A stretch of DNA of 64,000 nucleotides from Acidobacteriota bacterium (GTDB taxonomy: Bacteria > Acidobacteriota > Terriglobia > Acidiferrales > UBA7541), in NCBI GenBank assembly GCA_016201285.1, contig JACQDE010000062.1, positions 1-64,000 on the forward strand, read 5' to 3'. Below, in pieces: positions 7,378-35,745 of this stretch (its first letter is position 1; each line of letters starts with the position of its first letter). The translations under genes and the position numbers were made by a program. Under the pieces are notes generated by a model. That model searched no databases, was not told the DNA's origin, and saw only the letters and a program-made list of their open reading frames with translations.

Positions 7378-8496
7378 ATGCCCGCAGCTCGCATCTCGAC
7401 CTTCGACGATTGGGTGGATCTCTTCCGCGCTTGGCGCAAGGACATCGGCGTGGACTATCCCGAAATCGCAAACTTCAAGTTCGACGCCAAGTTCGGCCCC
7501 ACGCGCTCGAACGAAATCGAGTTCGGCGCCTACAAGGGCCGCCCGAAATGGCAGCGCGTCCTGCAGATTCCCGACCAGCGCATGCGCGACGCCCTGCTCA
7601 ACCTGATCGTCTATCAAGGCGACACCGAGTTTGCCTCCGTCGAGCAGCAGCGCCAGCTCTTCCTGAACTCCCCCAGCGAGCATGACCGCCAGTCGCTCTG
7701 CCGCGTCGTCACCGAGGAGATGCGCCACGGCTGGCAGATGTGCCACCTTCTCATCGCCCATTTTGGCTACAGCGGCCGCGTTGAGGCTCAAAAAATGCTC
7801 GAGCGCCGCGCCTTCGAGTCCAAGCGCCTCCTCGGCGCCTTCAACCAGGACGTCAACAACTGGCTTGACTTCTTCACCTACACCGACTTTGTGGACCGCG
7901 ACGGCAAGTTCCAGCTCACCATGCTCAGTTATTCCGGTTTCGAGCCGCTGGCGCAATCTATGATCCCGATGTTGAAAGAGGAGTCCTTCCACCTCGGCAC
8001 CGGCCAGGACGGCCTCAAGCGCATCGTCAAGGCCGGCGTCGTGCCGCTCCGCATCATCCAGAAGTTCATCAACAAGTGGATCCCGGTCAGCTACGACCTC
8101 TTCGGTGTGGATAATTCCAGTTCCGCGCACTGGTTCTACGTCTGGGGCCTCAAGGGCCGCTTCGACGAGCCACAGGCCAAACAGGAAGCCGACCTCGGCA
8201 AGATGAACGAGCACAACCGCTACCTCTACCATCTCGAGTGCAAGCAGCTCATCGAGCTGATCAACAGAGGCGTTCCGGCCGGCCAGCTCAAGCTCTACGT
8301 GCCCGACTTGAAATTCAACCGCCACATCGGCGAATTCGCCAATCAACCCTACAGCGTCCACGGTGAACTGCTTTCGCCGCGTGAGTATGAGGAGCACGTC
8401 AAGGAGATGCTTCCGCAGCCCGAGGACATCGCGCTGATTAAGGACATCCAGGCCAACGAGCCGAAATGGATCGCACCGAAGTTGACGGTGCAATGA
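7378..8496 (+). CDS. BoxB/PaaA-like diiron acyl-CoA epoxidase subunit
   Basis: 372 residues. The ferritin-like diiron ligand set is visible: Glu84 (GDTEFASVE), Glu114 and His117 (EEMRHGW), Asp173 (FVDRDGK) and Glu202 and His205 (EESFHLG). An Asp in the fourth position and the DRDGK motif fit BoxB, the benzoyl-CoA 2,3-epoxidase component, rather than PaaA, which has Glu there. As I recall them, the BoxB ligand spacings of 30, 3 and 29 residues are reproduced. It is about 100 residues shorter than typical BoxB. Neither a BoxA-type reductase nor the PaaBCE partners are encoded nearby. It probably inserts oxygen into an aromatic acyl-CoA ring; the exact substrate is unknown. Confidence 0.8.
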   Translation: MPAARISTFDDWVDLFRAWRKDIGVDYPEIANFKFDAKFGPTRSNEIEFGAYKGRPKWQRVLQIPDQRMRDALLNLIVYQGDTEFASVEQQRQLFLNSPSEHDRQSLCRVVTEEMRHGWQMCHLLIAHFGYSGRVEAQKMLERRAFESKRLLGAFNQDVNNWLDFFTYTDFVDRDGKFQLTMLSYSGFEPLAQSMIPMLKEESFHLGTGQDGLKRIVKAGVVPLRIIQKFINKWIPVSYDLFGVDNSSSAHWFYVWGLKGRFDEPQAKQEADLGKMNEHNRYLYHLECKQLIELINRGVPAGQLKLYVPDLKFNRHIGEFANQPYSVHGELLSPREYEEHVKEMLPQPEDIALIKDIQANEPKWIAPKLTVQ

Positions 8497-8685: not shown

Positions 8686-9489
8686 ATGCCGGCCACCACT
8701 CAACCCGGAACCGCTGTTCGCGGTCACTCCCTCGGCGAACTCATGGTCGCCGCCGCGGCCCGCGAAATCCGCGACGCCGAACTCGTCTTCGTCGGCATGC
8801 GCCTGCCGCTGCTCGCCTTTCTGCTTGCAAAACGCACTCACGCTCCTTCGGCTGTTGGCCTTTATGAAAATGGCATCATCCGCGACGCGCCATCCCCCGA
8901 AATGCTCTACACCATGGGTGATTCGCCCAATCTGTTCGGTGCTACTCTCTGCGGCTCGATGCTCGATGTGATGTCGCTCCTCCAGCAGGGCCGCGTCCAC
9001 GTCGGCATTCTCGGCGCCGCGGAAGTGGACCGCTTCGGAAATCTCAACACCGTCTGGGGACTCCGCGGCTCGGCGGAAATCCGCCTGCCCGGTTCCGGCG
9101 GCGCCTGCGACATCGCCTGTCTCGCACAGCGCACTGTCGTGCTCCTCCCGCACGACCGCGCGCGCCTCGTCGAACGTGTCCGCCACGTCACCTCCCCCGG
9201 CTACGGCACCGGCAATTCCTGGCGCCGCTCGCGCGGACTTCCCGCGCGCTCCGGCCCGTCGGCGATCATCACCACGATGGGCGTGCTTCGCTTCGGCGCT
9301 GATGGCGAAGCCTATCTCGCCTCGGCGCATCCCGGCGTCCCTGTTGAAGAGATCCTCGCCGCCACCGGCTGGACCCTGCGCGTTGCCGATTCGCTCAAGA
9401 CTACGCCGCCGCCCAACACCACCGAGCTTGCCGTCATCCGCGCGCTCGACCCCAAGCAATTCTGGACAGGAGCCGGCCAGCCCCAATGA
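8686..9489 (+). CDS. CoA transferase beta-type subunit (GctB/IpdB-like)
   Basis: 267 residues of the class I CoA-transferase beta subunit family. Motifs include GLYENGII, the (S)ENG motif with the candidate catalytic Glu61, GAAEVDRFGNLNT, and LPGSGGACDIA. Class I enzymes of the glutaconate CoA-transferase type move CoA between carboxylic acids through a Glu-thioester. IpdB homologues of the same fold act as C-C hydrolases in steroid ring degradation, and as I recall they lack ENG, so the motif favours genuine transferase activity here. It overlaps the next crotonase by ATGA, so the two are coupled. The alpha subunit is encoded after that crotonase. Confidence 0.82.
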   Translation: MPATTQPGTAVRGHSLGELMVAAAAREIRDAELVFVGMRLPLLAFLLAKRTHAPSAVGLYENGIIRDAPSPEMLYTMGDSPNLFGATLCGSMLDVMSLLQQGRVHVGILGAAEVDRFGNLNTVWGLRGSAEIRLPGSGGACDIACLAQRTVVLLPHDRARLVERVRHVTSPGYGTGNSWRRSRGLPARSGPSAIITTMGVLRFGADGEAYLASAHPGVPVEEILAATGWTLRVADSLKTTPPPNTTELAVIRALDPKQFWTGAGQPQ

Positions 9490-10253
9490 CCGAAACCTCC
9501 ACCATTCACGTTCGCACCGAAGGCCGCACCGCTTGGGTCACGCTCGACCGCCCGCCTCTCAACGTCATGGACATCGCCATGATGCGCGAGATCGGCGCGG
9601 CGCTCGACGACCTCCTCCCGCGCTGCGAATTCATCGTCTTCCAGGGCGCAGGCCCCAAAGGCTTCTCCGCAGGCGCCGAAGTCAAAGACCACACGCCCGA
9701 CCGCGTCCGCGAGATGCTCAGTGCCTTTCACGGCATCTTTGGAAAACTCTGGCGCGCCGACTGCATCACCATCGCCGCCGTGCACGGCGTCTGCCTCGGC
9801 GGTGGCTGCGAGCTGGCCACCTTCTGCGATTTCGTCGTCGCCACCGAATCTGCAAAATTCGGCCAGCCGGAAATCAAACTGGGCTGCTTCCCGCCGGTGG
9901 CCCTGGTCACGTTTCCCGCGCTCGCCGGCCCGCGTGCCGCACTCGACCTGATCCTCACTGGCCGCACGATTCTCGCGCCGGAAGCGAAACAGCTCGGCCT
10001 CGTCTCCCGCGTTTGCCCGGACGACGCTCTCGCCGCTTCCGTGGACGCCTTGCTGAAAGAGATCGGCGGCTTGAGTCCCGCCGTCCTGCGCATGACCCGT
10101 CGCGCCCTGTTGCAGCGCTCCGGCATGGATTTTGAGAAAAGTTTGCACGCCGCCGAACAGTTTTATCTGAACGACCTGATGAAGACGGAGGACGCCTGCG
10201 AAGGCATCCAAGCCTTCCTCGAAAAGCGCTTCCCCGTCTGGCACGGCCGTTAG
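9486..10253 (+). CDS. Crotonase resembling cyclohexa-1,5-dienecarbonyl-CoA hydratase
   Basis: 255 residues. PPLNVMDIAMM at the N-terminus, GFSAGAEVKDHTPDRVREML near residues 58-77, GVCLGGGCELATFCD and FGQPEIKLGCFPPVA are visible. Both hydratase Glu residues are present. From memory, the VKDHTP and CFPPVA segments are hallmarks of the dienoyl-CoA hydratases (Dch/BamR) of the anaerobic benzoyl-CoA pathway. This is a family resemblance, not proof of substrate. The gene sits between the two CoA-transferase subunit genes and starts within the stop codon of the first. Confidence 0.78.
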   Translation: MTETSTIHVRTEGRTAWVTLDRPPLNVMDIAMMREIGAALDDLLPRCEFIVFQGAGPKGFSAGAEVKDHTPDRVREMLSAFHGIFGKLWRADCITIAAVHGVCLGGGCELATFCDFVVATESAKFGQPEIKLGCFPPVALVTFPALAGPRAALDLILTGRTILAPEAKQLGLVSRVCPDDALAASVDALLKEIGGLSPAVLRMTRRALLQRSGMDFEKSLHAAEQFYLNDLMKTEDACEGIQAFLEKRFPVWHGR

Positions 10254-10255
10254 TA

Positions 10256-10330
10256 GCACAGGCTTTCAGCCTGTGCGCTTTGTCGCGCCCGGAGGGCGCG
10301 ACCTTGGAGTGCGGGCTTCAGCGCCGCCTT
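10256..10330. repeat. Composite intergenic repeat (GCACAGGC palindrome plus TTGGAGTGCGG element)
   Basis: GCACAGGCT/AGCCTGTGC at 10256-10276 is followed by GTCGCGCCC...GGGCGCGAC, then TTGGAGTGCGG and CAGCGCCGCCTT. The second module recurs at 17439, 24372, 25662, 34514 and 35001. Confidence 0.6.
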
Positions 10331-10352
10331 GCAATTGGCAGGGTTTTTGGAA

Positions 10353-11276
10353 ATGACTACGACGTCCAAACTCGTCACCATGCAACATGCCGTCCGGGAT
10401 CACGTGCCTTCTGGCTCGATGGTTCTGCTCGGTGCGCAGCTCGAGCCGATGATTCCGTTTGCCGCCGGCCACGAGCTCATCCGCCAGAGCCGCCGCGACC
10501 TCACCCTTGTCGGCCCTATCTCCGACATTCTCTTTGACCAGATGATCGGCGCCGGCTGCGTTGCGCGCACGATGGCTGCGTGGATCGGCAACGTCTCCGC
10601 CGGTGTCGGCTACTGCTTCCGTCGCGCCGTCGAGCAGAACATCCCGCGCCCGCTGGCCACCGTGGACTACTCGAACCTCACGCTCGCGCTCGGCCTGCAC
10701 GCCGGCGCCATGGGCGTGCCCTTCATGCCCACTTATTCGACGATGGGCAGCGACTTGCCGATCAAAAACGGCAACCTGCGCGAATTCAATTCGCCGGTGA
10801 ACGAAGAAAAGCTCATCGCCGTCCGCGCGCTGCGTCCTGACGTCGCCATCATCCACGTGCAGCGCGCCGACCAGTTCGGCAATGCGCATCTCTGGGGCTC
10901 GCTCGGCGTCGCCGTGGACGGCGCGCGCGCCGCGCGCAAAGTCATCGTCGTCGCCGAAGAAATCGTCGCGCCGGAGGTCATCGCCTCCGACCCCAACCGC
11001 ACGCTGATTCCCGGTTTTCTCGTCGCCGCCGTGGTGCACGAGCCCTGGGGCGCGCATCCCTCGCCCGTGCAGGGCCATTACGCCCGCGACCACGCCTTTT
11101 TCTCGCAGTACCACGAGCAGTCGCGCGAGCTCAAGGATTTCGAGCAATGGCTTCAGCGCTGGGTTCTTGGCGTGAAGGACCGCGCGGAATATATGAATTT
11201 GCTCGGCGCCTGCCGCGTCGAGTCATTGGGCGTCAAGCAGCACGCCATGTCGGCCCCCGCCGACTTTGGCTATTGA
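10353..11276 (+). CDS. CoA transferase alpha-type subunit (GctA/IpdA-like)
   Basis: About 307 residues of the class I CoA-transferase alpha subunit family. Motifs include GSMVLLGAQLEPMIPFAAGH, LTLVGPISDILFDQMIGAG, GVPFMPTYSTMGSD and VQRADQFGNAHLWG. It forms the partner of the beta subunit encoded at 8686. ATG at 10353 is chosen; a TTG 24 nt upstream would begin inside the preceding repeat. The acid activated is unknown, but the location points to an aromatic acid or a ring-cleavage product. Confidence 0.82.
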   Translation: MTTTSKLVTMQHAVRDHVPSGSMVLLGAQLEPMIPFAAGHELIRQSRRDLTLVGPISDILFDQMIGAGCVARTMAAWIGNVSAGVGYCFRRAVEQNIPRPLATVDYSNLTLALGLHAGAMGVPFMPTYSTMGSDLPIKNGNLREFNSPVNEEKLIAVRALRPDVAIIHVQRADQFGNAHLWGSLGVAVDGARAARKVIVVAEEIVAPEVIASDPNRTLIPGFLVAAVVHEPWGAHPSPVQGHYARDHAFFSQYHEQSRELKDFEQWLQRWVLGVKDRAEYMNLLGACRVESLGVKQHAMSAPADFGY

Positions 11277-11583
11277 TGTCGCGCCGGTCTTCAAGCTGGC
11301 ATCTTTATGCGTGTAGCGCCGGCGCCTGTGGTGAACGATGTCGAACCATCTCGCCGGCTCTTGGAGGGCAGGCACACAAGGATTCGGGACCGGCCTGTCC
11401 GGCACTTTGTTCGCGTTCGCGCACCAGAGTCCCGACAGGTTTTGTCGGGACGAAGGATCTCAGCATAGAACGCAACACACCAGATGGGATCGGCACGCAT
11501 GGCTCGCTGATTGCTATGAACTATCGACGATCAACTATCGACTGTGCACTGACGGTTGACCACTGATCACTGGGGAACGAACC
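11277..11583. repeat. Gap of repeat debris before the selenoprotein gene
   Basis: No gene seen. It contains a GGCAGGCACACAAGG...GGCCTGTCC-type element near 11365-11402 and a GTCCCGAC...GTCGGGAC hairpin with GAAGGATCT flank near 11428-11460. A degenerate short-period stretch (CTATCGA/CTGAC-like words) runs from about 11515 to 11575, ending in the GGGGAACGAACC leader of the next gene. Confidence 0.5.
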
Positions 11584-11937
11584 ATGGCGAAGGCCAAACT
11601 CCAATTTCTTCACAAACCCACTTGAACCTCCTGCCGCAAAGCAAGAGGTCTCTTGCTCAAAAAAGGCGTGGAACTCGAATTGCGCGATCTCGACAAGCAG
11701 CGGCTCACCATCGCTGAACTGGACGAGCTGATCGGCCAGCTCGACTACAAGCTCTTCTTGAACCCGCGCAACGAGCTGTTCCGCCGGTTGAAGATGAACG
11801 TGAAGCCGCCCTCGCGCGCCGAGGCGCTCAAGCTTATGGCCGCGAACCCAAACCTGATCCGCCGTCCCATCGTCGTCCGGAGCGGCTACGTCGTCCTCGG
11901 CTGCGACGAGCCCGCACTGAAGAAACTCGTGGGCTAA
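11584..11937 (+). CDS. Putative selenoprotein, ArsC/Spx-family thioredoxin-fold reductase (UxxC)
   Basis: The frame opens at ATG 11584 after a GGGGAA ribosome site and runs 117 codons to TAA, with one internal TGA at 11623-11625 (codon 14). Read through, the motif is KPT-U-TSCRKARGLL: the TGA takes the first position of the family CxxC redox motif, and Cys17 is retained. Downstream conservation is complete for the ArsC/Spx family: LELRDLDKQRLTIAELDEL, LFLNPRNELFR, and NPNLIRRPIVVRSG with the RPIV signature. A hairpin of the right geometry follows the TGA. Recoding to selenocysteine is therefore the best explanation. A nonsense mutation is the alternative, but it would have to hit exactly the redox residue. 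Substrate unknown (arsenate, or a protein or thiol disulfide). Confidence 0.8.
11626..11660 (+). promoter_or_regulatory. Candidate bacterial SECIS element
   Basis: Directly downstream of TGA 11623-11625, a 7-bp stem AGCAAGA/TCTTGCT (11640-11646 with 11651-11657) closes a GGTC tetraloop at 11647-11650. The loop begins with GG about 21 nt after the TGA. Bacterial SECIS hairpins need a small apical loop with a G at its start, about 16-37 nt from the UGA, and this fits. It is inside the coding sequence, as bacterial SECIS elements are. Confidence 0.72.
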
Positions 11938-11975: not shown

Positions 11976-12482
11976 ATGACCAAGCACCTCATCAAACTCA
12001 AAGTGAATGGCGAGCCGTACGAAGTCGCCGTTCCGCCCAACAAGCTCCTGCTCGACGTCCTCCGCGAGGACCTCGGCTTCACCGGCTCCAAACGCGGCTG
12101 CGACGATTCCTCTTGTGGCTGCTGTGCGGTGCTGATCGACGGCGCGCCAATGCTCGCTTGCGTCGCCCTCGCCTCGAGTTATCAGGACTGTGAGATCACC
12201 ACCGTCGAGGGCCTCGGCACGCTCGACGGCCTCCACCCCGTGCAGTCCGGCTTCGCCGATGGTGGCGGCTCGCAGTGCGGTTTCTGCACCTCCGGCTTCC
12301 TGATTTCGACGAAGGCCCTGCTCGATCGCAACCCGCAACCGTCACTCGACGAAATTCGCGAGGCGCTCTCCTCCAATCTCTGCCGCTGCACGGGCTACAT
12401 GCAGATCTACGAATCGGTGAAGCTCGCCATCGAGCGCGCCGCGGCCCGCAAGGCCGCGAATCCCGCGGGAGCGAGGAGCTGA
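11976..12482 (+). CDS. hcrC: 4-hydroxybenzoyl-CoA reductase-type [2Fe-2S] subunit
   Basis: 168 residues with the two [2Fe-2S] clusters of xanthine-oxidase-family small subunits. The plant-ferredoxin type cluster is in KRGCDDSSCGCCAVLIDG with a further Cys in MLACV (about residues 45-70). The helical-domain cluster is in QCGFCTSGF and NLCRCTGY (about 105-145). It passes electrons between the molybdenum and flavin subunits, whose genes follow at once. The family assignment to 4-hydroxybenzoyl-CoA reductase rests on the flavin subunit (see 14805). Cytoplasmic. Confidence 0.87.
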   Translation: MTKHLIKLKVNGEPYEVAVPPNKLLLDVLREDLGFTGSKRGCDDSSCGCCAVLIDGAPMLACVALASSYQDCEITTVEGLGTLDGLHPVQSGFADGGGSQCGFCTSGFLISTKALLDRNPQPSLDEIREALSSNLCRCTGYMQIYESVKLAIERAAARKAANPAGARS

Positions 12483-12483
12483 C

Positions 12484-14808
12484 ATGGCGATGAATTCCGT
12501 CATCGGCAAGCCGCTCCCCATGATCGAGTCCCGCGCCAAGGTCACCGGCCTCGGCAAGTACGCCGACGATCTCTCTGTGCCGGGCATGCTCATCGGACGC
12601 ATCCTGCATTCTCCGCACGCGCACGCCGTCATCCGTTCCATTGACACTTCGCGCGCCGAAGCGCTCCCCGGTGTCAAGGCTGTTGCCACCGGCAGGGACG
12701 CGCCGCATCCCTACGGTATTCTCCCCATCGGCCACGACGAGTGCGTCTTCACCGTGGACAAGGCCCGCTACATCGGCGACAACATCGCCGCTGTCGCCGC
12801 CACCTCCGCCGCAATCGCCGAGCAGGCGCTCGACCTCATCCACGTGGACTATGAACTCCTCCCCGCGTTCTTCGATCCGCTCGAATCCATGCAGTCCGCT
12901 GAGCACTGGCTCCACCCGACCAAACCCAACAACATCGAGAAGGAATATCACCATCTCTTCGGCAGCGTGGACGAAGGCTTCGCGCAGGCCGCTTTCGTCC
13001 TCGAGCAGCGCTTCTTCGCCGGCGAGGTCACCCACGCCGCGATGGAGCCGCACGCCACGCTCGCCATCTGGGAACCCGACGGCCGCCTCACTGTTCACTC
13101 TTCCACGCAGGTGCCCTACTACCTTCACCGCACGCTCTCCGAAGTTCTTGAAATGCCGATGAGCCAGATCCGCGTGATCAAGCCGCTCATCGGCGGCGGC
13201 TTCGGCGGCAAGAGCGAAATTATCCCGCTCGAAGTCGCCGCTTCCGTGCTCGCGAAAATGGCCAAGCGCCCGGTGAAGATCACCTACACGCGCGAGGAAG
13301 TTTTTCTCGCGCACCGCGGCCGCCCCATCACCATCGTGGACATGAAGGTCGGCCTGACGGAGGAAGGGAAAATCAGCGCCGTCGCCGCGCGCGTCGTGCA
13401 GGATGGCGGCGCCTACTGCGGTTACGGTCCCGTCACTGTGCTCTATTCCGGGGCGCTTCTCGGCGCGCTATACGACATTCCCAATGTCCGTTACGACGGC
13501 TTCCGCGTGCTTACCAACAAACCCGCCTGCGGCGCCATGCGCGGCCACGGCACGGTCAACGTCCGCTTCGCTTTCGAATCCGTGCTCGACGATCTCGCCC
13601 GCGACGCCGGCATTGACCCCGCCGAAGTCCGCCGCCGCAATTTGCTCAAAGCGCCGTGCATTACCGTCAACGGTTTGCGCGTCACCAGCTACGGTCTGCC
13701 CGAGTGCATTGAAAAAGTTGTCGAGCGCTCCGGCTGGAAGGAAAAGCAGGGGAAACTGCCCTACGGGAAGGGCATCGGCATCGCCTGCAGCCACTACGTC
13801 AGCGGCGCGGCGAATCCCATCATTCGCTCGAATATTCCGCACACCACCGTGCACATCAAGATTGACCGTGACGCTGGTGTCACCGTGTACACCGGCGCCT
13901 CGGAGATCGGCCAAGGCTCGGACACCATGCACGTCCAGATCGTTGCCGAAATCCTCGGCGTTCGACCCGAGCGCATCCGCCTGATCGCTGCGGACACCGA
14001 GCTCACGCCCATCGACCTCGGGAGCTACTCCAGCCGCGTCACCTTTATGGCCGGCAATGCCTGCCTCGAAGCCGCCAGGAACATGCGCGCGCAAATCCTT
14101 GAAGGCGTTGCTGCGAAGTACAAGCTTGGCACCGCCATGCTCGACATGCGCGACGAACAGGTCATCTCTCTCGACGACTCGCGCCTGCGTCTCACCTTCG
14201 ACGAGGCCGTCGCCGCCGCGCTCGAATTCCGCGGCGCGCTCGTCGCTAAAGGCACCTATGCGCCCCCCGAAGAATCCCGCGGCGGCAAGCACAAGGGCGC
14301 CGGCGTCGGCCCTTCGCCTTCCTACAGCTACAGCGCGCAGACCGTCGAAGTCTCTGTGGACACCGACACCGGCCAGATCCGCGTCGAAAAAATCATTGCC
14401 GCGCACGACTGCGGCCGCGCGCTCAACCCGCTCACCGTCGAAGGCCAGGTCGAAGGCTCGGTCTATATGGGCCTGGGCCAAGCGTTGCAGGAAGAAATGG
14501 TTTGGGACAACGGCCGCCTGATGAATCCGTCGCTGCTCGAATACAAGATTGCCACCACTCTCGAAACGCCGGAGATCGAAAGCATCATCGTCGAAAGCAT
14601 TGACCCCGAAGGCCCCTTCGGCGCCAAGGAAGCCGGTGAAGGCTCGCTCGCCGCGACGATTCCCGCTGTCGCCAATGCCATCTACGACGCCGTCGGCGTG
14701 CGCATCAATTCGCTTCCCATCACTCCGGAAAAAATCCTCGCCGCGCTGCGCGAAAAGGGAAAGCAGCAGCGCGGCGGCAAATCCGGCTCGAACGGCGGCG
14801 CGCGATGA
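12484..14808 (+). CDS. hcrA: 4-hydroxybenzoyl-CoA reductase-type molybdopterin subunit
   Basis: 774 residues, normal for the family. Xanthine-oxidase-type molybdenum motifs are present: IGGGFGGKSE near 236, ACGAMRGHGTVN near 345 (molybdopterin binding), EIGQGSDTMH near 477, and the C-terminal KEAGEGSLAATIP with the catalytic Glu. In 4-hydroxybenzoyl-CoA reductase this subunit reductively removes the phenolic hydroxyl to yield benzoyl-CoA. A related hydroxylating dehydrogenase is possible. It starts 1 nt after the stop of the Fe-S subunit and overlaps the flavin subunit by ATGA, so all three are made as one unit. No XdhC-type maturation factor is seen in the window. Confidence 0.87.
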   Translation: MAMNSVIGKPLPMIESRAKVTGLGKYADDLSVPGMLIGRILHSPHAHAVIRSIDTSRAEALPGVKAVATGRDAPHPYGILPIGHDECVFTVDKARYIGDNIAAVAATSAAIAEQALDLIHVDYELLPAFFDPLESMQSAEHWLHPTKPNNIEKEYHHLFGSVDEGFAQAAFVLEQRFFAGEVTHAAMEPHATLAIWEPDGRLTVHSSTQVPYYLHRTLSEVLEMPMSQIRVIKPLIGGGFGGKSEIIPLEVAASVLAKMAKRPVKITYTREEVFLAHRGRPITIVDMKVGLTEEGKISAVAARVVQDGGAYCGYGPVTVLYSGALLGALYDIPNVRYDGFRVLTNKPACGAMRGHGTVNVRFAFESVLDDLARDAGIDPAEVRRRNLLKAPCITVNGLRVTSYGLPECIEKVVERSGWKEKQGKLPYGKGIGIACSHYVSGAANPIIRSNIPHTTVHIKIDRDAGVTVYTGASEIGQGSDTMHVQIVAEILGVRPERIRLIAADTELTPIDLGSYSSRVTFMAGNACLEAARNMRAQILEGVAAKYKLGTAMLDMRDEQVISLDDSRLRLTFDEAVAAALEFRGALVAKGTYAPPEESRGGKHKGAGVGPSPSYSYSAQTVEVSVDTDTGQIRVEKIIAAHDCGRALNPLTVEGQVEGSVYMGLGQALQEEMVWDNGRLMNPSLLEYKIATTLETPEIESIIVESIDPEGPFGAKEAGEGSLAATIPAVANAIYDAVGVRINSLPITPEKILAALREKGKQQRGGKSGSNGGAR

Positions 14809-15845
14809 GCATGCCCGCCTTCCGCCTCGAACGCCCGCGCAGTGTCGCCGGCGCCGTCAGCATCCTCGCTGCGCACGGCCCCGATGCCATGATCCTCGCC
14901 GGCGGCACTGACGTCGTGCCCAATCTGCAGATGAAGCTCTTCTCGCCGCGTGTTCTCGTGGATATCAAATCGCTCGCGAAAGTGTGCCGCCTCTCCGCCA
15001 TCGAATGGTCGCCGGGAAACGGCCTGCGCATTGGCGCGCTCTCCACGCTTACGGCCGTCTGCGAATCGCTGCTTATCCAGGAAAAGTTTCCTGTGCTGGC
15101 CCGTGCCGTGGCGACCATCGCCGGCCCGCTTCAGCGCAACATGGGTACCCTCGGCGGCAACCTGTGCCTCGAGACCCGCTGCCACTGGTACAACCAGTCC
15201 GAGTTTTGGCGCAAATCCCTCGGCGGCTGCCTCAAGCTGCAAGTCTCGGATGCTCTTGCGGGAAAAGAAGGCCCGGTCTGCCACGTTGCCCCCGGCGGCC
15301 GGCGCTGCTGGGCTGCGTGGTCCGGCGACGCCGCACCCGCGCTACTCACCCTCGACGCCGAAATTGAAATTGCCGGCCCCGCTGGTTTACGCCGTGTCGC
15401 GCTCGCGCAGTTCTACAGGAACGACGGCATGGACCGCATTGCGCTGGGCCGCGACGAACTTCTCACTGCCGTCCGCGTCCCCCCGCGCATGGCTGGCCGC
15501 CGCGGCAACTACCGCAAGTTGCGCGTCCGCAACTCGATTGACTATCCCCTCGCCGGCGTTGCTGTCTCGATGGACGTGGACCCGCGCGGTGTCTGCCGCG
15601 ACGCCCGCCTCGCCCTTACCGCCGTCAATCCGGCGCCGCTGCTGGTGAAAGAAGTCGGCGAATGGCTCATCGGTCAGACGGCCTCGCCCGAATTGATTGA
15701 ACGCGTCGCGCAGCAGGCCATTCGCACCGCCAAGCCGCTCACCACGTCCGGCTCCACGCCCGTCTATCGCCGCGACATGGTCCGCGTCTTCACCCGCCGC
15801 GCACTGGAAGAAGCTTGGCGTGAGACGGCCGGAGCACCGGTATGA
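14805..15845 (+). CDS. hcrB: 4-hydroxybenzoyl-CoA reductase-type FAD/[4Fe-4S] subunit
   Basis: 346 residues. FAD-binding PCMH domain: AGGTDVVPNLQ near residue 32, and AGPLQRNMGTLGGNLC near 106. Unlike ordinary CO dehydrogenase or xanthine dehydrogenase flavoproteins, it carries an extra segment with Cys121, Cys126, Cys142, Cys159 and Cys168 (TRCHWYNQSEFWRKS, GPVCHVAPGGRRCWAA). This insertion is what holds the additional [4Fe-4S] cluster in 4-hydroxybenzoyl-CoA reductase beta subunits, and it is the main reason for naming the whole complex Hcr-type. The C-terminal CO-deh flavoprotein domain follows (GNYRKLRVRNSIDYPLAGVA). ATGA overlaps on both sides show tight coupling. Confidence 0.87.
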   Translation: MSMPAFRLERPRSVAGAVSILAAHGPDAMILAGGTDVVPNLQMKLFSPRVLVDIKSLAKVCRLSAIEWSPGNGLRIGALSTLTAVCESLLIQEKFPVLARAVATIAGPLQRNMGTLGGNLCLETRCHWYNQSEFWRKSLGGCLKLQVSDALAGKEGPVCHVAPGGRRCWAAWSGDAAPALLTLDAEIEIAGPAGLRRVALAQFYRNDGMDRIALGRDELLTAVRVPPRMAGRRGNYRKLRVRNSIDYPLAGVAVSMDVDPRGVCRDARLALTAVNPAPLLVKEVGEWLIGQTASPELIERVAQQAIRTAKPLTTSGSTPVYRRDMVRVFTRRALEEAWRETAGAPV

Positions 15846-16436: not shown

Positions 16437-17285
16437 ATGTCACCCATCATCGACATTCACATTCACATTCAGCCACTGCACATGTTCAAGCCTCACGCGC
16501 TCGAACTCATCAAGCGCGGCAGGAAGAATTTCGACTTCATCGAGAAGGTTTCCTCTGACTCCGCTGCCTTCCTGCGATTCCTCGACGACACAGGCATCGA
16601 ACGCGCCGGCCTCATCAACTACGTCAGCCCCGACGTCATCGGCTTCCCGCCCGAGGTCAACGACTGGATCGCCAATTACTGCAAGGCCGACCCGCGCCGC
16701 CTGCTCGCCTTTGGCTCCGTGCATCCGAAATACGTCGCTGACGCCAGCGCCGAAGTGGACCGCCTCGCCAAAATCGGCATCCGTGGCCTGAAGATCCATC
16801 CCGCGCACCAGGTGTTTTCGCCCAACGCCTACCGCGACGGCCTCGGTCCCCTCGCCGCCGTCTATGAGCGCGCCGCGGCGAACGGCCTGCCGGTGATGAT
16901 CCACACCGGCACCTCAATCTTCCCGGGCGCGCGCAACGCTCATGCCCAGCCGATGCTGGCCGACGACGTTTCCGTGGATTTCCCGAACCTCGTCGTCATT
17001 CTTGCGCACGGCGGCCGCCCGCTCTGGATGAACGAGGCCTTCTTCCTCGTTCGCCGCCACAAGAACATGTACATGGATATTTCGGGCATCCCGCCGCAAA
17101 AGCTCCTCGAATATTTCCCCCGCCTCGAGGAAATCGCCGACAAGGTTCTCTTCGGCACCGACTGGCCCGGCCCCGGCGTTCCTGACATCCGCGGCAACAT
17201 CGAGAAGTTTATGGCCGTGTCGCTTTCCGATGCCGCCCGCCGCAAGATCCTCTACGACAACGCCGCCAGGCTGTTTCCTGTGTAG
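16437..17285 (+). CDS. Amidohydrolase family 2 (ACMSD-like) metal-dependent hydrolase/decarboxylase
   Basis: 282 residues, TIM-barrel amidohydrolase. Metal-site motifs in order: DIHIHIQP (HxH, residues 6-13), LKIHPAHQ near 122, MIHTGTS near 159, ILAHGGRPLW near 187, and FGTDWPG near 241 with the catalytic Asp. Family members hydrolyse lactones or amides or decarboxylate aromatic and semialdehyde acids. In this cluster a (de)carboxylation or ring-opening hydrolysis is plausible. It is separated from the hcr genes only by the foreign ORF. Confidence 0.83.
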   Translation: MSPIIDIHIHIQPLHMFKPHALELIKRGRKNFDFIEKVSSDSAAFLRFLDDTGIERAGLINYVSPDVIGFPPEVNDWIANYCKADPRRLLAFGSVHPKYVADASAEVDRLAKIGIRGLKIHPAHQVFSPNAYRDGLGPLAAVYERAAANGLPVMIHTGTSIFPGARNAHAQPMLADDVSVDFPNLVVILAHGGRPLWMNEAFFLVRRHKNMYMDISGIPPQKLLEYFPRLEEIADKVLFGTDWPGPGVPDIRGNIEKFMAVSLSDAARRKILYDNAARLFPV

Positions 17286-18509: not shown

Positions 18510-19364
18510 ATGGGCATTCACACGGTCGCAGTACTCGGCGCCGGCACGATGGGCCGCGGCATCGCCTACGCCGCCGCCCTCGGCGGCTACCGCACCATTC
18601 TGGAAGACGTCTCTCCACACGTGTTCGAGCAGTCGCTCGCTTGGATTCGCCAGTCGCTTGACGACGGGGTCGCCCGCGGCAAGGTCACGCCGCAACAAAA
18701 GGACGCCGCCTTGGGACAATTTTCCACGACCGGCTCGGTCGACACCGCCTGTCGCGAAGCCGATCTCATCATCGAAGCCGTGCCCGAAGACATGAAGCTC
18801 AAGATTGACGTCTTCGCCACTCTCGACAATTCCGCCCCGGCCCACGCCATCCTTGCCAGCAATACTTCATCGCTTTCTGTCACAGAGATTGCCGCGGTCA
18901 CCCGCCGCCCCGAGAAATGTATCGGCATGCACTTTTTTAATCCCGTCCCCAAAATGAAGCTCCTCGAGCTCGTTCGCGCGCTGGAAACCTCGCCGGAAAC
19001 GCTCGACGCCTGCCGCGAAGTCGGCCGCCGCATGGGCAAGGAAACCGTCGTCGTCCGTGACTCCCCCGGCTTCATCACCTCCCGCATCAACGCCATGATC
19101 GGCAACGAAGCGTTCTACATACTCGAGGCCGGCATCGCCTCCGCCGAAGACATCGACAAAGCCGTCAAGCTCGGCCTGAATCACCCGATGGGCTCGTTCG
19201 AGATGGTGGACCTTGTCGGCCTCGACGTCCGCCACAGCATCCTGGAATATCTGCACCGCACTCTTGGCGAAAAATTCCTCCCCTGTCCGCTGATGACCCA
19301 GTACGTCAAAGCCGGCCGCCTGGGCCGCAAATCTGGCCGCGGCGTTTACGATTATTCTGCGTAG
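18510..19364 (+). CDS. 3-hydroxyacyl-CoA dehydrogenase
   Basis: 284 residues, the size of the monofunctional 3-hydroxybutyryl-CoA/PaaH type. The Rossmann motif is GAGTMGRGIAYAAALGGY at residues 9-26; ASNTSSLSVTEIA near 113 and GMHFFNPVPKMKLLELVR near 135 contain the catalytic His. The C-terminal domain is intact (MGSFEMVDLVGLD, GRKSGRGVYDYS). It oxidises a 3-hydroxyacyl-CoA with NAD. Last enzyme gene of the catabolic run; no thiolase follows. Confidence 0.9.
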   Translation: MGIHTVAVLGAGTMGRGIAYAAALGGYRTILEDVSPHVFEQSLAWIRQSLDDGVARGKVTPQQKDAALGQFSTTGSVDTACREADLIIEAVPEDMKLKIDVFATLDNSAPAHAILASNTSSLSVTEIAAVTRRPEKCIGMHFFNPVPKMKLLELVRALETSPETLDACREVGRRMGKETVVVRDSPGFITSRINAMIGNEAFYILEAGIASAEDIDKAVKLGLNHPMGSFEMVDLVGLDVRHSILEYLHRTLGEKFLPCPLMTQYVKAGRLGRKSGRGVYDYSA

Positions 19365-19747: not shown

Positions 19748-20296
19748 ATGAGTGTCTTCGACAAAATCATTCTGTCCTGCGGCGACCTCACGGACAAGTC
19801 CGCGGACGCCATCGTCAACGCCGCCAACAACGACCTGCAGCTTGGCGGCGGCGTCGCCGGCGCCATCCGCCGCAAGGGCGGCCCAACGATTCAGCAGGAA
19901 TGCGACGCCATCGGCTCGATCCCCGTCGGCTTCGCCGCCATCACCGGCGGCGGCAATTTGAAAGCGCATCACGTCATCCACGCCGCCAGCATGCAGCTTG
20001 GCGGACGCACCACCGCTCCCGCGCTGCGCAACTCCACCGCGCACTGTCTCCGCATTGCTTCTGAAAAAGGTCTGAAGACCATTGCGTTTCCTGCCGTCGG
20101 CACCGGCATCGCCGGCTTCCCCATGCGCGAGTGCGCCGAAATCATGCTCCGCGAATGCGTCGCGCACTTGAAAGGGAAGACCTCGCTCGAAGCGATTCAT
20201 TTCGTCCTCTTCGACCAGACCTCCCTCGACGTCTTCGAACAGGTGTGGAAGGAAGTGCAGGAACAGGGCGCGCTCGACGCCGGTGCAGGCACATGA
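19748..20296 (+). CDS. Macro-domain protein (ADP-ribose/O-acetyl-ADP-ribose hydrolase)
   Basis: 182 residues with the typical start of bacterial macrodomains: LSCGDLTDKSADAIVNAANN, then LGGGVAGAIRRKGG and AVGTGIAGFPMRECAEIM. The NAANN segment and the glycine loop bind ADP-ribose. Members remove ADP-ribose from proteins or deacetylate O-acetyl-ADP-ribose. The stop overlaps the next gene by ATGA, so it is coupled to an ArsC-type reductase. Confidence 0.88.
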   Translation: MSVFDKIILSCGDLTDKSADAIVNAANNDLQLGGGVAGAIRRKGGPTIQQECDAIGSIPVGFAAITGGGNLKAHHVIHAASMQLGGRTTAPALRNSTAHCLRIASEKGLKTIAFPAVGTGIAGFPMRECAEIMLRECVAHLKGKTSLEAIHFVLFDQTSLDVFEQVWKEVQEQGALDAGAGT

Positions 20297-34570: not shown

Positions 34571-34879
34571 CTACCGAGCCACTGTCTCCTGTTTCGCCTT
34601 CCCCAGGAAAAACTCTTTGATCTCTTTTGCCACCCACACCGGCCCCACCAGAAAATAGATCGGCCCCTGAAAAAACGCCGGCTTGTTTCCTTCGATCCGG
34701 TGCCCGGCGAAGAGCAGCAACCAACCGCCCACGAACAGCTCCAGGCCGGCTGAAAACCGGACAAGAATAAGCACCAGCCCCGCGAGAATAATCGGAATAC
34801 CCACGCCGTGCAGGATTTTGTTCCACACGTTCTTGTGCTCGTGGTCGTACCGCGTCATGTACTCGTTAATCGTCGGCAT
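34571..34879 (-). CDS. Mpo1-like (DUF962) small membrane protein
   Basis: 102 residues. NEYMTRYDHEHKNVWNKILH followed by two hydrophobic helices (IPIILAGLVLILVRF, LELFVGGWLLLFAG) and the family motif GHRIEGNKPAFF. Homologous to yeast Mpo1/YGL010w, an iron-dependent fatty-acid alpha-dioxygenase-like protein; the bacterial function is unproven. ATG 34879 is preceded by GGAGG at good spacing, better than the longer reading from 34915. Confidence 0.82.
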   Translation of the reverse strand: MPTINEYMTRYDHEHKNVWNKILHGVGIPIILAGLVLILVRFSAGLELFVGGWLLLFAGHRIEGNKPAFFQGPIYFLVGPVWVAKEIKEFFLGKAKQETVAR

Positions 34880-35148
34880 CCGGCGCCTCCACTCCCTATT
34901 TTGTGATTCCCCCATTTTACAACAGCATTGAGTTGTGGGCAGGAGTTCATCCGGCCCGTTGGGGTGGGCATGTTGCGCCGCTGTACAGGTGGGCCTATCC
35001 CGTCGCCTTGGAGTGCGGGAGCTTGCTCCCGCCTTCCCTTTCGCGGCTTTGCCTGGTGCCGCAATTGTGCTGGTGAAATCTTTCTGAGGGCGTGAATCGA
35101 ACGTTCGCAGCTCGCTGAGCCTTGCGCGCGACTACCTGCTACCTCTCC
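34880..35148. repeat. Gap with TTGGAGTGCGG repeat
   Basis: 269 nt without a gene. A copy of the dispersed module (CGTCGCCTTGGAGTGCGG, then a GGGAGC/GCTCCC hairpin and GCCTTCCC) lies at 35001-35036. Nothing else recognised. Confidence 0.5.
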
Positions 35149-35745
35149 TCACAGTTCCCGCCGCCCCTCAATCGCCTTCAGCATCGTAATCTCGTCCGCG
35201 TATTCCAGGTCGCTGCCCACCGGGATGCCCACGCCGATGCGCGTCACGCGGATACCCAGCGGCTTGATCAGCTTCGAGATGTACACCGCGGTCGCTTCGC
35301 CCTCGGCGTTCGGGTTCGTCGCGATGATGATCTCTTCCACGCCGCCCTTCAGCCGCTCGATCAGGCTCTTGATCTTCAGTTGTTCCGGCCCCACGCCCTG
35401 CAGCGGCGATAGCGCCCCGCCCAGCACGTGGTAGAGCCCGCTGAACTGCCGCGTCTTCTCGATGGCGAGAATGTTGTTCGGTTCCTCGACCACGCAAATT
35501 GTCTTCCGGTTGCGCGTCGCGCTGGTGCAATAGAAGCACGGGTCCGTGTCGGTGATGTTGTTGCACACTGAGCACTCGCGGATCTTTTCCTTCGCGTCGC
35601 GAATCGCTTGCGCCAGCGCCAGCGCTTCCTCCGGCTCCGCCCGCAGGATGTGGAACGCCAGCCGTTGCGCCGTCTTCTGCCCGATTCCCGGCAGGTGCTT
35701 CAACTCTTCGATCAATCGCGCGATGGGTTCCGCAAAATCAGGCAT
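35149..35745 (-). CDS. recR: Recombination mediator protein RecR
   Basis: 198 residues, full length. Helix-hairpin-helix [20 protein letters not shown] at 12-31, zinc finger [16 protein letters not shown] near 58-73, and Toprim domain with [14 protein letters not shown] and [15 protein letters not shown]. It works with RecFO in loading RecA at gaps. Third gene of the dnaX-ybaB-recR set. Confidence 0.95.

Follow-up and report, generated by a model that had tools for sequence, protein, structure and literature searches.

We propose that the frame at positions 11584-11937 (+ strand) of the window, the stretch of 64,000 nucleotides of Acidobacteriota DNA analysed here, almost certainly codes for a genuine selenoprotein with the thioredoxin-like ArsC/Spx fold (PF03960), in which the TGA at codon 14 stands for selenocysteine (Sec). 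This reading of the sequence is carried by four independent lines of evidence: the selenium-insertion machinery in the source genome, an alignment column in which homologues have either TGA or Cys, a synonymous constraint on a hairpin just downstream, and the co-occurrence of the TGA form with selA. From the comparative evidence, SelB and Sec-tRNA would read the UGA of codon 14 as selenocysteine, guided by the hairpin lying 14 nt 3′ of it. The work thereby adds a set of selenoprotein genes across Acidobacteriota, from which ordinary gene callers, misled by the Sec codon, are likely to drop the active site.

Reading frame, selenium machinery and homologues

The frame begins with an ATG at 11584, with an SD-like GGGGA 5′ of it, and ends with a TAA at 11935-11937, giving 117 residues when its sole internal stop, the codon-14 TGA (11623-11625, + strand), is read as Sec: MAKAKLQFLHKPT-U-TSCRKARGLLLKKG...NPNLIRRPIVV...LKKLVG. 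The TGA opens the redox motif U14-T-S-C17, at a column where other homologues have Cys, and the NPNLIRRPIVV stretch 3′ of it is conserved in the family alignment. The initial annotation, made from the letters of the window, had described a frame continuous but for one TGA at the first position of a CxxC motif, with a ribosome site in front and an intact family signature behind, and all of this is borne out. The read-through protein matches the ArsC profile PF03960 over residues 10-112 (57.7 bits against a gathering cut-off of 24, E 1.5e-15), and the Glutaredoxin profile also matches it, weakly.

Mechanical ORF calling places the start 3′ of the TGA, at the TTG at 11653, just as the initial annotation had predicted of gene callers, and the true product could be supposed to begin there, with the 5′ codons untranslated. 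We consider such a late start highly improbable and reject it, since codons 3-13 are conserved at the protein level (pN/pS 0.41) and cover residues 5-10, which form beta-strand 1 of the fold, the Cys homologues read through codon 14 without a break, and the TTG itself sits within the hairpin at 11640-11657.

The source genome (3.67 Mb, 93% complete, 87 contigs) contains every component of the machinery that the initial annotation had proposed to look for, namely selA (560.9 bits), selB (370 bits), a tRNA-Sec with the anticodon TCA (UCA; 61.5 bits, contig C80), and selD (reverse strand of contig C30, around 34784-35410). A single TGA also interrupts selD, in GGT-TGA-GCG-GCC-AAG, that is G-U-A-A-K, which we take to be the usual Sec/Cys site of SelD. 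The SelD of this organism is, judging by its sequence, very probably a selenoprotein itself, and the TGA at this site thus makes it very probable that the organism produces at least one other selenoprotein. A scan of the source genome for a second gene with the hairpin, at up to two mismatches, gave no convincing candidate among the sites inspected, which were all but one two-mismatch site on contig C11.

Homologues were searched for in 61 close genomes and 396 genomes of the phylum, and matches were found in 32 of the former and 125 of the latter, where the weakest matches are generic relatives only. Across Acidobacteriota, the codon-14 column of the 58 aligned homologues is occupied by TGA 35 times and by Cys 23 times, which is the exchange that the initial annotation had named as a check of its reading. 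One sequence (L079, from genome G179) was left out of the aligned rows because it is cut by a change of frame; in this ArsC-like homologue, either a frameshift or an assembly error has put the initial residues out of frame immediately ahead of the hairpin. On a homologue tree built without the residue in question, the Sec/Cys label changes at least three times. Sec and Cys have been exchanged several times within the clade, and some of the Cys lineages are also without selB. Such repeated exchange makes the clade a natural series for two questions: what a redox protein gains from Sec, and whether the Sec codon or the machinery is lost first.

The form of the codon also follows the machinery. 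Among the close relatives, SelB scores over its cut-off in all 21 genomes with the TGA form, and the four carriers without selB (G017, G027, G033 and G054, of which G033 is 72% complete) all have Cys (Fisher p 0.007, relatedness ignored). Phylum-wide, strong selA matches occur in 52 of 53 TGA-form genomes versus 30 of 71 with other forms (p 4e-12, relatedness again ignored). Genome G156 has the TGA form and no selA match, perhaps because the genome is incomplete or the machinery was lost recently.

The hairpin downstream of the TGA

The SECIS-type hairpin (11640-11657, + strand), recognized by comparison, has a 7-bp stem, AGCAAGA/TCTTGCT, and a GGTC loop that begins 21 nt past the TGA with G in its first positions, and agrees in stem, loop and distance with the hairpin noticed in the initial annotation. 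The loop resembles that of fdhF from E. coli, AGGUCU. Within the near clade, GCAAGAGGTCTCTTGC hardly changes, while the adjoining codons vary freely. In 23 TGA forms, synonymous differences make up 9.9% of the same-amino-acid comparisons at the hairpin codons (+6 to +10), versus 46.5% upstream of the TGA, 44.0% at codons +1 to +5 and 54.1% further downstream, and in nine Cys forms the same hairpin codons differ synonymously in 63.7%. In line with this, pS is 0.216 at the hairpin versus 0.61-0.74, and the hairpin is absent from the nearest Cys forms. Wherever a near-clade TGA form has Arg at this point of the hairpin, it is encoded by AGA, a very rare choice at 0.9% of the Arg codons locally. 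Because this synonymous constraint is confined to the TGA forms, and the TGA falls in the same column in homologues of many genera, the TGA is not there by chance. The near-invariant hairpin shows clearly how an RNA signal can restrict a coding sequence, here that of A-R-G-L-L.

Covariation points in the same direction. In three aligned rows AGA...CTC is replaced by AAA...CTT, which amounts to a compensatory change from G-C to A-U at pair 8-15, and 97.7% of the cells are paired; given how strongly the hairpin is conserved, the pair-count control has little pair variation to work with. Two rows with GCAAGAAGTTTCTTGC keep a hairpin of altered sequence, as do TGA forms at a greater distance, for example GCCAGGAGTTTCCTGGC; at the same place, none was seen in two distant TGA forms, L092 and L094. 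Tested sequence by sequence, the folding energy gives a weak signal for several near-clade members, since the amino acids ARGLL by themselves favour a hairpin; synonymous-site divergence was taken as the better test. Folding at this place is also found in a distant group, in some of its Cys forms (L083, L089 and L097), so a hairpin alone proves nothing. The Rfam search gave no SECIS match in the window; the only match, to RAGATH-25 over the hairpin (11635-11672), scored 18.9 bits where the gathering score is 49 and was taken as a chance overlap. A bacterial SECIS was a further check proposed in the initial annotation, and a conserved SECIS-type hairpin is what the synonymous-site and covariation comparisons give.

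With the column and the hairpin at hand, there is practically no chance that an ordinary Cys-type ArsC/Spx gene has here been disabled by mutation or misread in sequencing, a reading that could appeal to the fragmentation of the source genome and to a conceivable one-base error from TGC to TGA but is refuted by the conserved TGA column together with the hairpin, the identical TGA recurring across dozens of genomes and genera, in a frame under purifying selection on both sides of it, and in company with the Sec machinery.

Fold, probable function and known relatives

The AlphaFold model of the protein (pLDDT 89.4) places residue 14 right before a helix at residues 15-26, and its best PDB matches are Spx (TM 0.82-0.85; Foldseek E 8.5e-10), followed by ArsC-family proteins. 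In sequence it reaches none of the NCBIfam cut-offs, whether for ArsC, Spx, TIGR01617 or NF041106. From this fold and these below-cut-off scores we infer a Sec/Cys dithiol-type reductase, and fold and motif together indicate that the protein is probably a Sec-based thiol-disulfide or glutaredoxin-type reductase. Sec14, just before helix 1, would be the attacking residue and Cys17 the resolving residue of a UxxC motif; the selenolate would attack a substrate in its oxidised form, after which a cellular thiol system would reduce the Se-S bond formed with Cys17.

A regulator like Spx, binding the alpha subunit of RNA polymerase and switched by a Sec-Cys redox pair, is an unlikely alternative. Spx is among the best matches in both sequence and fold, the Spx/MgsR family (TIGR01617) and the Spx structures 1z3e and 6gho have the same fold, place of the CxxC and RRP motif, and with C put for U the protein reaches 65.6 bits against TIGR01617. 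However, this lies below the cut-off of 75.05, as does the score for Spx proper (NF002459, cut-off 123), and the present protein has Sec first in its motif. Moreover, Gly52 of Spx is needed for the contact with alpha-CTD, and the site of this residue falls in a two-residue gap of the alignment to Spx, so that the present protein has no residue there. Some relatives do exceed the TIGR01617 cut-off, as L094 with 92.8 bits.

Less likely again is an arsenate reductase, ArsC proper, serving the detoxification of arsenate. The fold and the Pfam family are shared, and the invariant R94-P95 matches the R-P motif of ArsC, but the protein scores 45.1 bits against TIGR00014 with its cut-off of 106.05, and ars genes are absent among the identified neighbours. 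The third catalytic Arg of ArsC is R107 in R773 ArsC; in the stretch of the family alignment where it would be expected to fall, G106 and D108 are conserved.

The reductase that we favour would join a known kind of selenoprotein. An ArsC-family selenoprotein with a UxxS motif was described from the Sargasso Sea in 2005 (PMC1088965), and ArsC-like selenoproteins of Deltaproteobacteria, with Cys homologues elsewhere, in 2006 (PMC1794560). The GOS survey of 2008 listed both an arsenate reductase 1 with UxxS and an 'Arsenate reductase 2' with UxxC, the latter of the ArsC/Spx-type domain cd03032 (PMC2398784), and NF041106 (ArsC_rel_Se_1) appears as an arsenate reductase-like UxxC selenoprotein in a 2026 review (PMC13188914). 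The remark of the initial annotation that ArsC-like selenoproteins were known from metagenomic surveys is thus correct (PMC1088965; PMC2398784). Arsenate reductase 1 shares with the present protein the ArsC family and a catalytic Sec, but has UxxS where the present protein has UxxC (PMC1088965; PMC2398784). The Deltaproteobacterial proteins, compared by their description, are likewise ArsC-like Sec proteins but belong to another phylum (PMC1794560). 'Arsenate reductase 2' has the same ArsC/Spx-type domain with Sec in UxxC (PMC2398784); it comes from marine metagenomes, whereas the present clade, set apart from it by description, belongs to Acidobacteriota and has a near-invariant SECIS and a conserved neighbourhood. 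NF041106 shares the ArsC fold and a UxxC motif with Sec or Cys, but the protein of the window scores 22.8 bits against its cut-off of 85, and the best of ten relatives scanned singly 45.3.

UxxC selenoproteins of the ArsC/Spx type have been known since 2008; the present clade, widespread in Acidobacteriota, lies well below the NF041106 cut-off. The protein had been called new-looking; this is too strong, since the UxxC kind was already present in the GOS survey (PMC2398784) and ArsC-like selenoproteins date from 2005-2006. The literature search, whose coverage did not extend to the work of Haft and colleagues on new selenoprotein families, gave no description of the present clade in Acidobacteriota.

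Gene neighbourhood

The genes given here with coordinates lie on the + strand. Upstream are acyl-CoA genes, for a BoxB-like protein (7378-8496; 231.9 bits against a cut-off of 499), CoA-transferase B (8686-9489), a crotonase (9486-10253) and CoA-transferase A (10329-11276). Downstream, starting 38 nt past the stop, follow 4-hydroxybenzoyl-CoA-reductase-like subunits (11976-12482, 12484-14808 and 14805-15845; 1034 bits for the alpha profile TIGR03194, over its cut-off, and 315 bits for TIGR03195, below it), and then, as conserved neighbours, genes for an amidohydrolase (16437-17285), a 3-hydroxyacyl-CoA dehydrogenase (18510-19364) and a macro-domain protein (19748-20296). The locus also includes an aldehyde dehydrogenase, a UDG-family protein and crotonases. 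The order of genes is conserved within the window's family, with the reductase-like subunits directly 3′ of the ArsC/Spx-like gene in 8 of 17 same-family Sec loci.

In four Cys-form loci (L072, L073, L113 and L114), most genes of the cluster have been lost while the ArsC-like gene is kept between the UDG and macro-domain genes; in L109, also a Cys form, much of the cluster is still present. Outside the window's family, the cluster neighbours are mostly absent (L102-L106, L115, L117 and L118). The gene is therefore broader than the cluster. Its linkage to CoA-ester catabolism suggests co-expression in the window's family, but its role is not restricted to this catabolism. The initial annotation had placed the gene inside an aromatic acyl-CoA cluster; this context is real and conserved in the family, but it is not where the gene exclusively belongs.

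Of 16 same-family Sec relatives, 12 have a rhodanese gene (PF00581) just 5′ of the ArsC/Spx-like gene, L054 of the same genus among them, while in the window it is missing from the upstream gap (11277-11583), where no remnant of it was found. It is a decidedly improbable proposal that the clade is a distinct Acidobacteriota Sec-ArsC/Spx family dedicated to protecting or regenerating a thiol of a CoA-ester or molybdenum-hydroxylase pathway, together with the adjoining rhodanese of the relatives, for instance by helping to supply the molybdenum cofactor with sulfur or selenium.

Other rhodaneses of the source genome are found on contigs C49 and C59, and the upstream gap of the window contains a 14-nt tandem duplication (11516-11543). 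In another family, distant Sec ArsC-like genes (L119 and L120) lie within 6 kb of molybdenum-hydroxylase-like genes that resemble the reductase-like subunits of the window.
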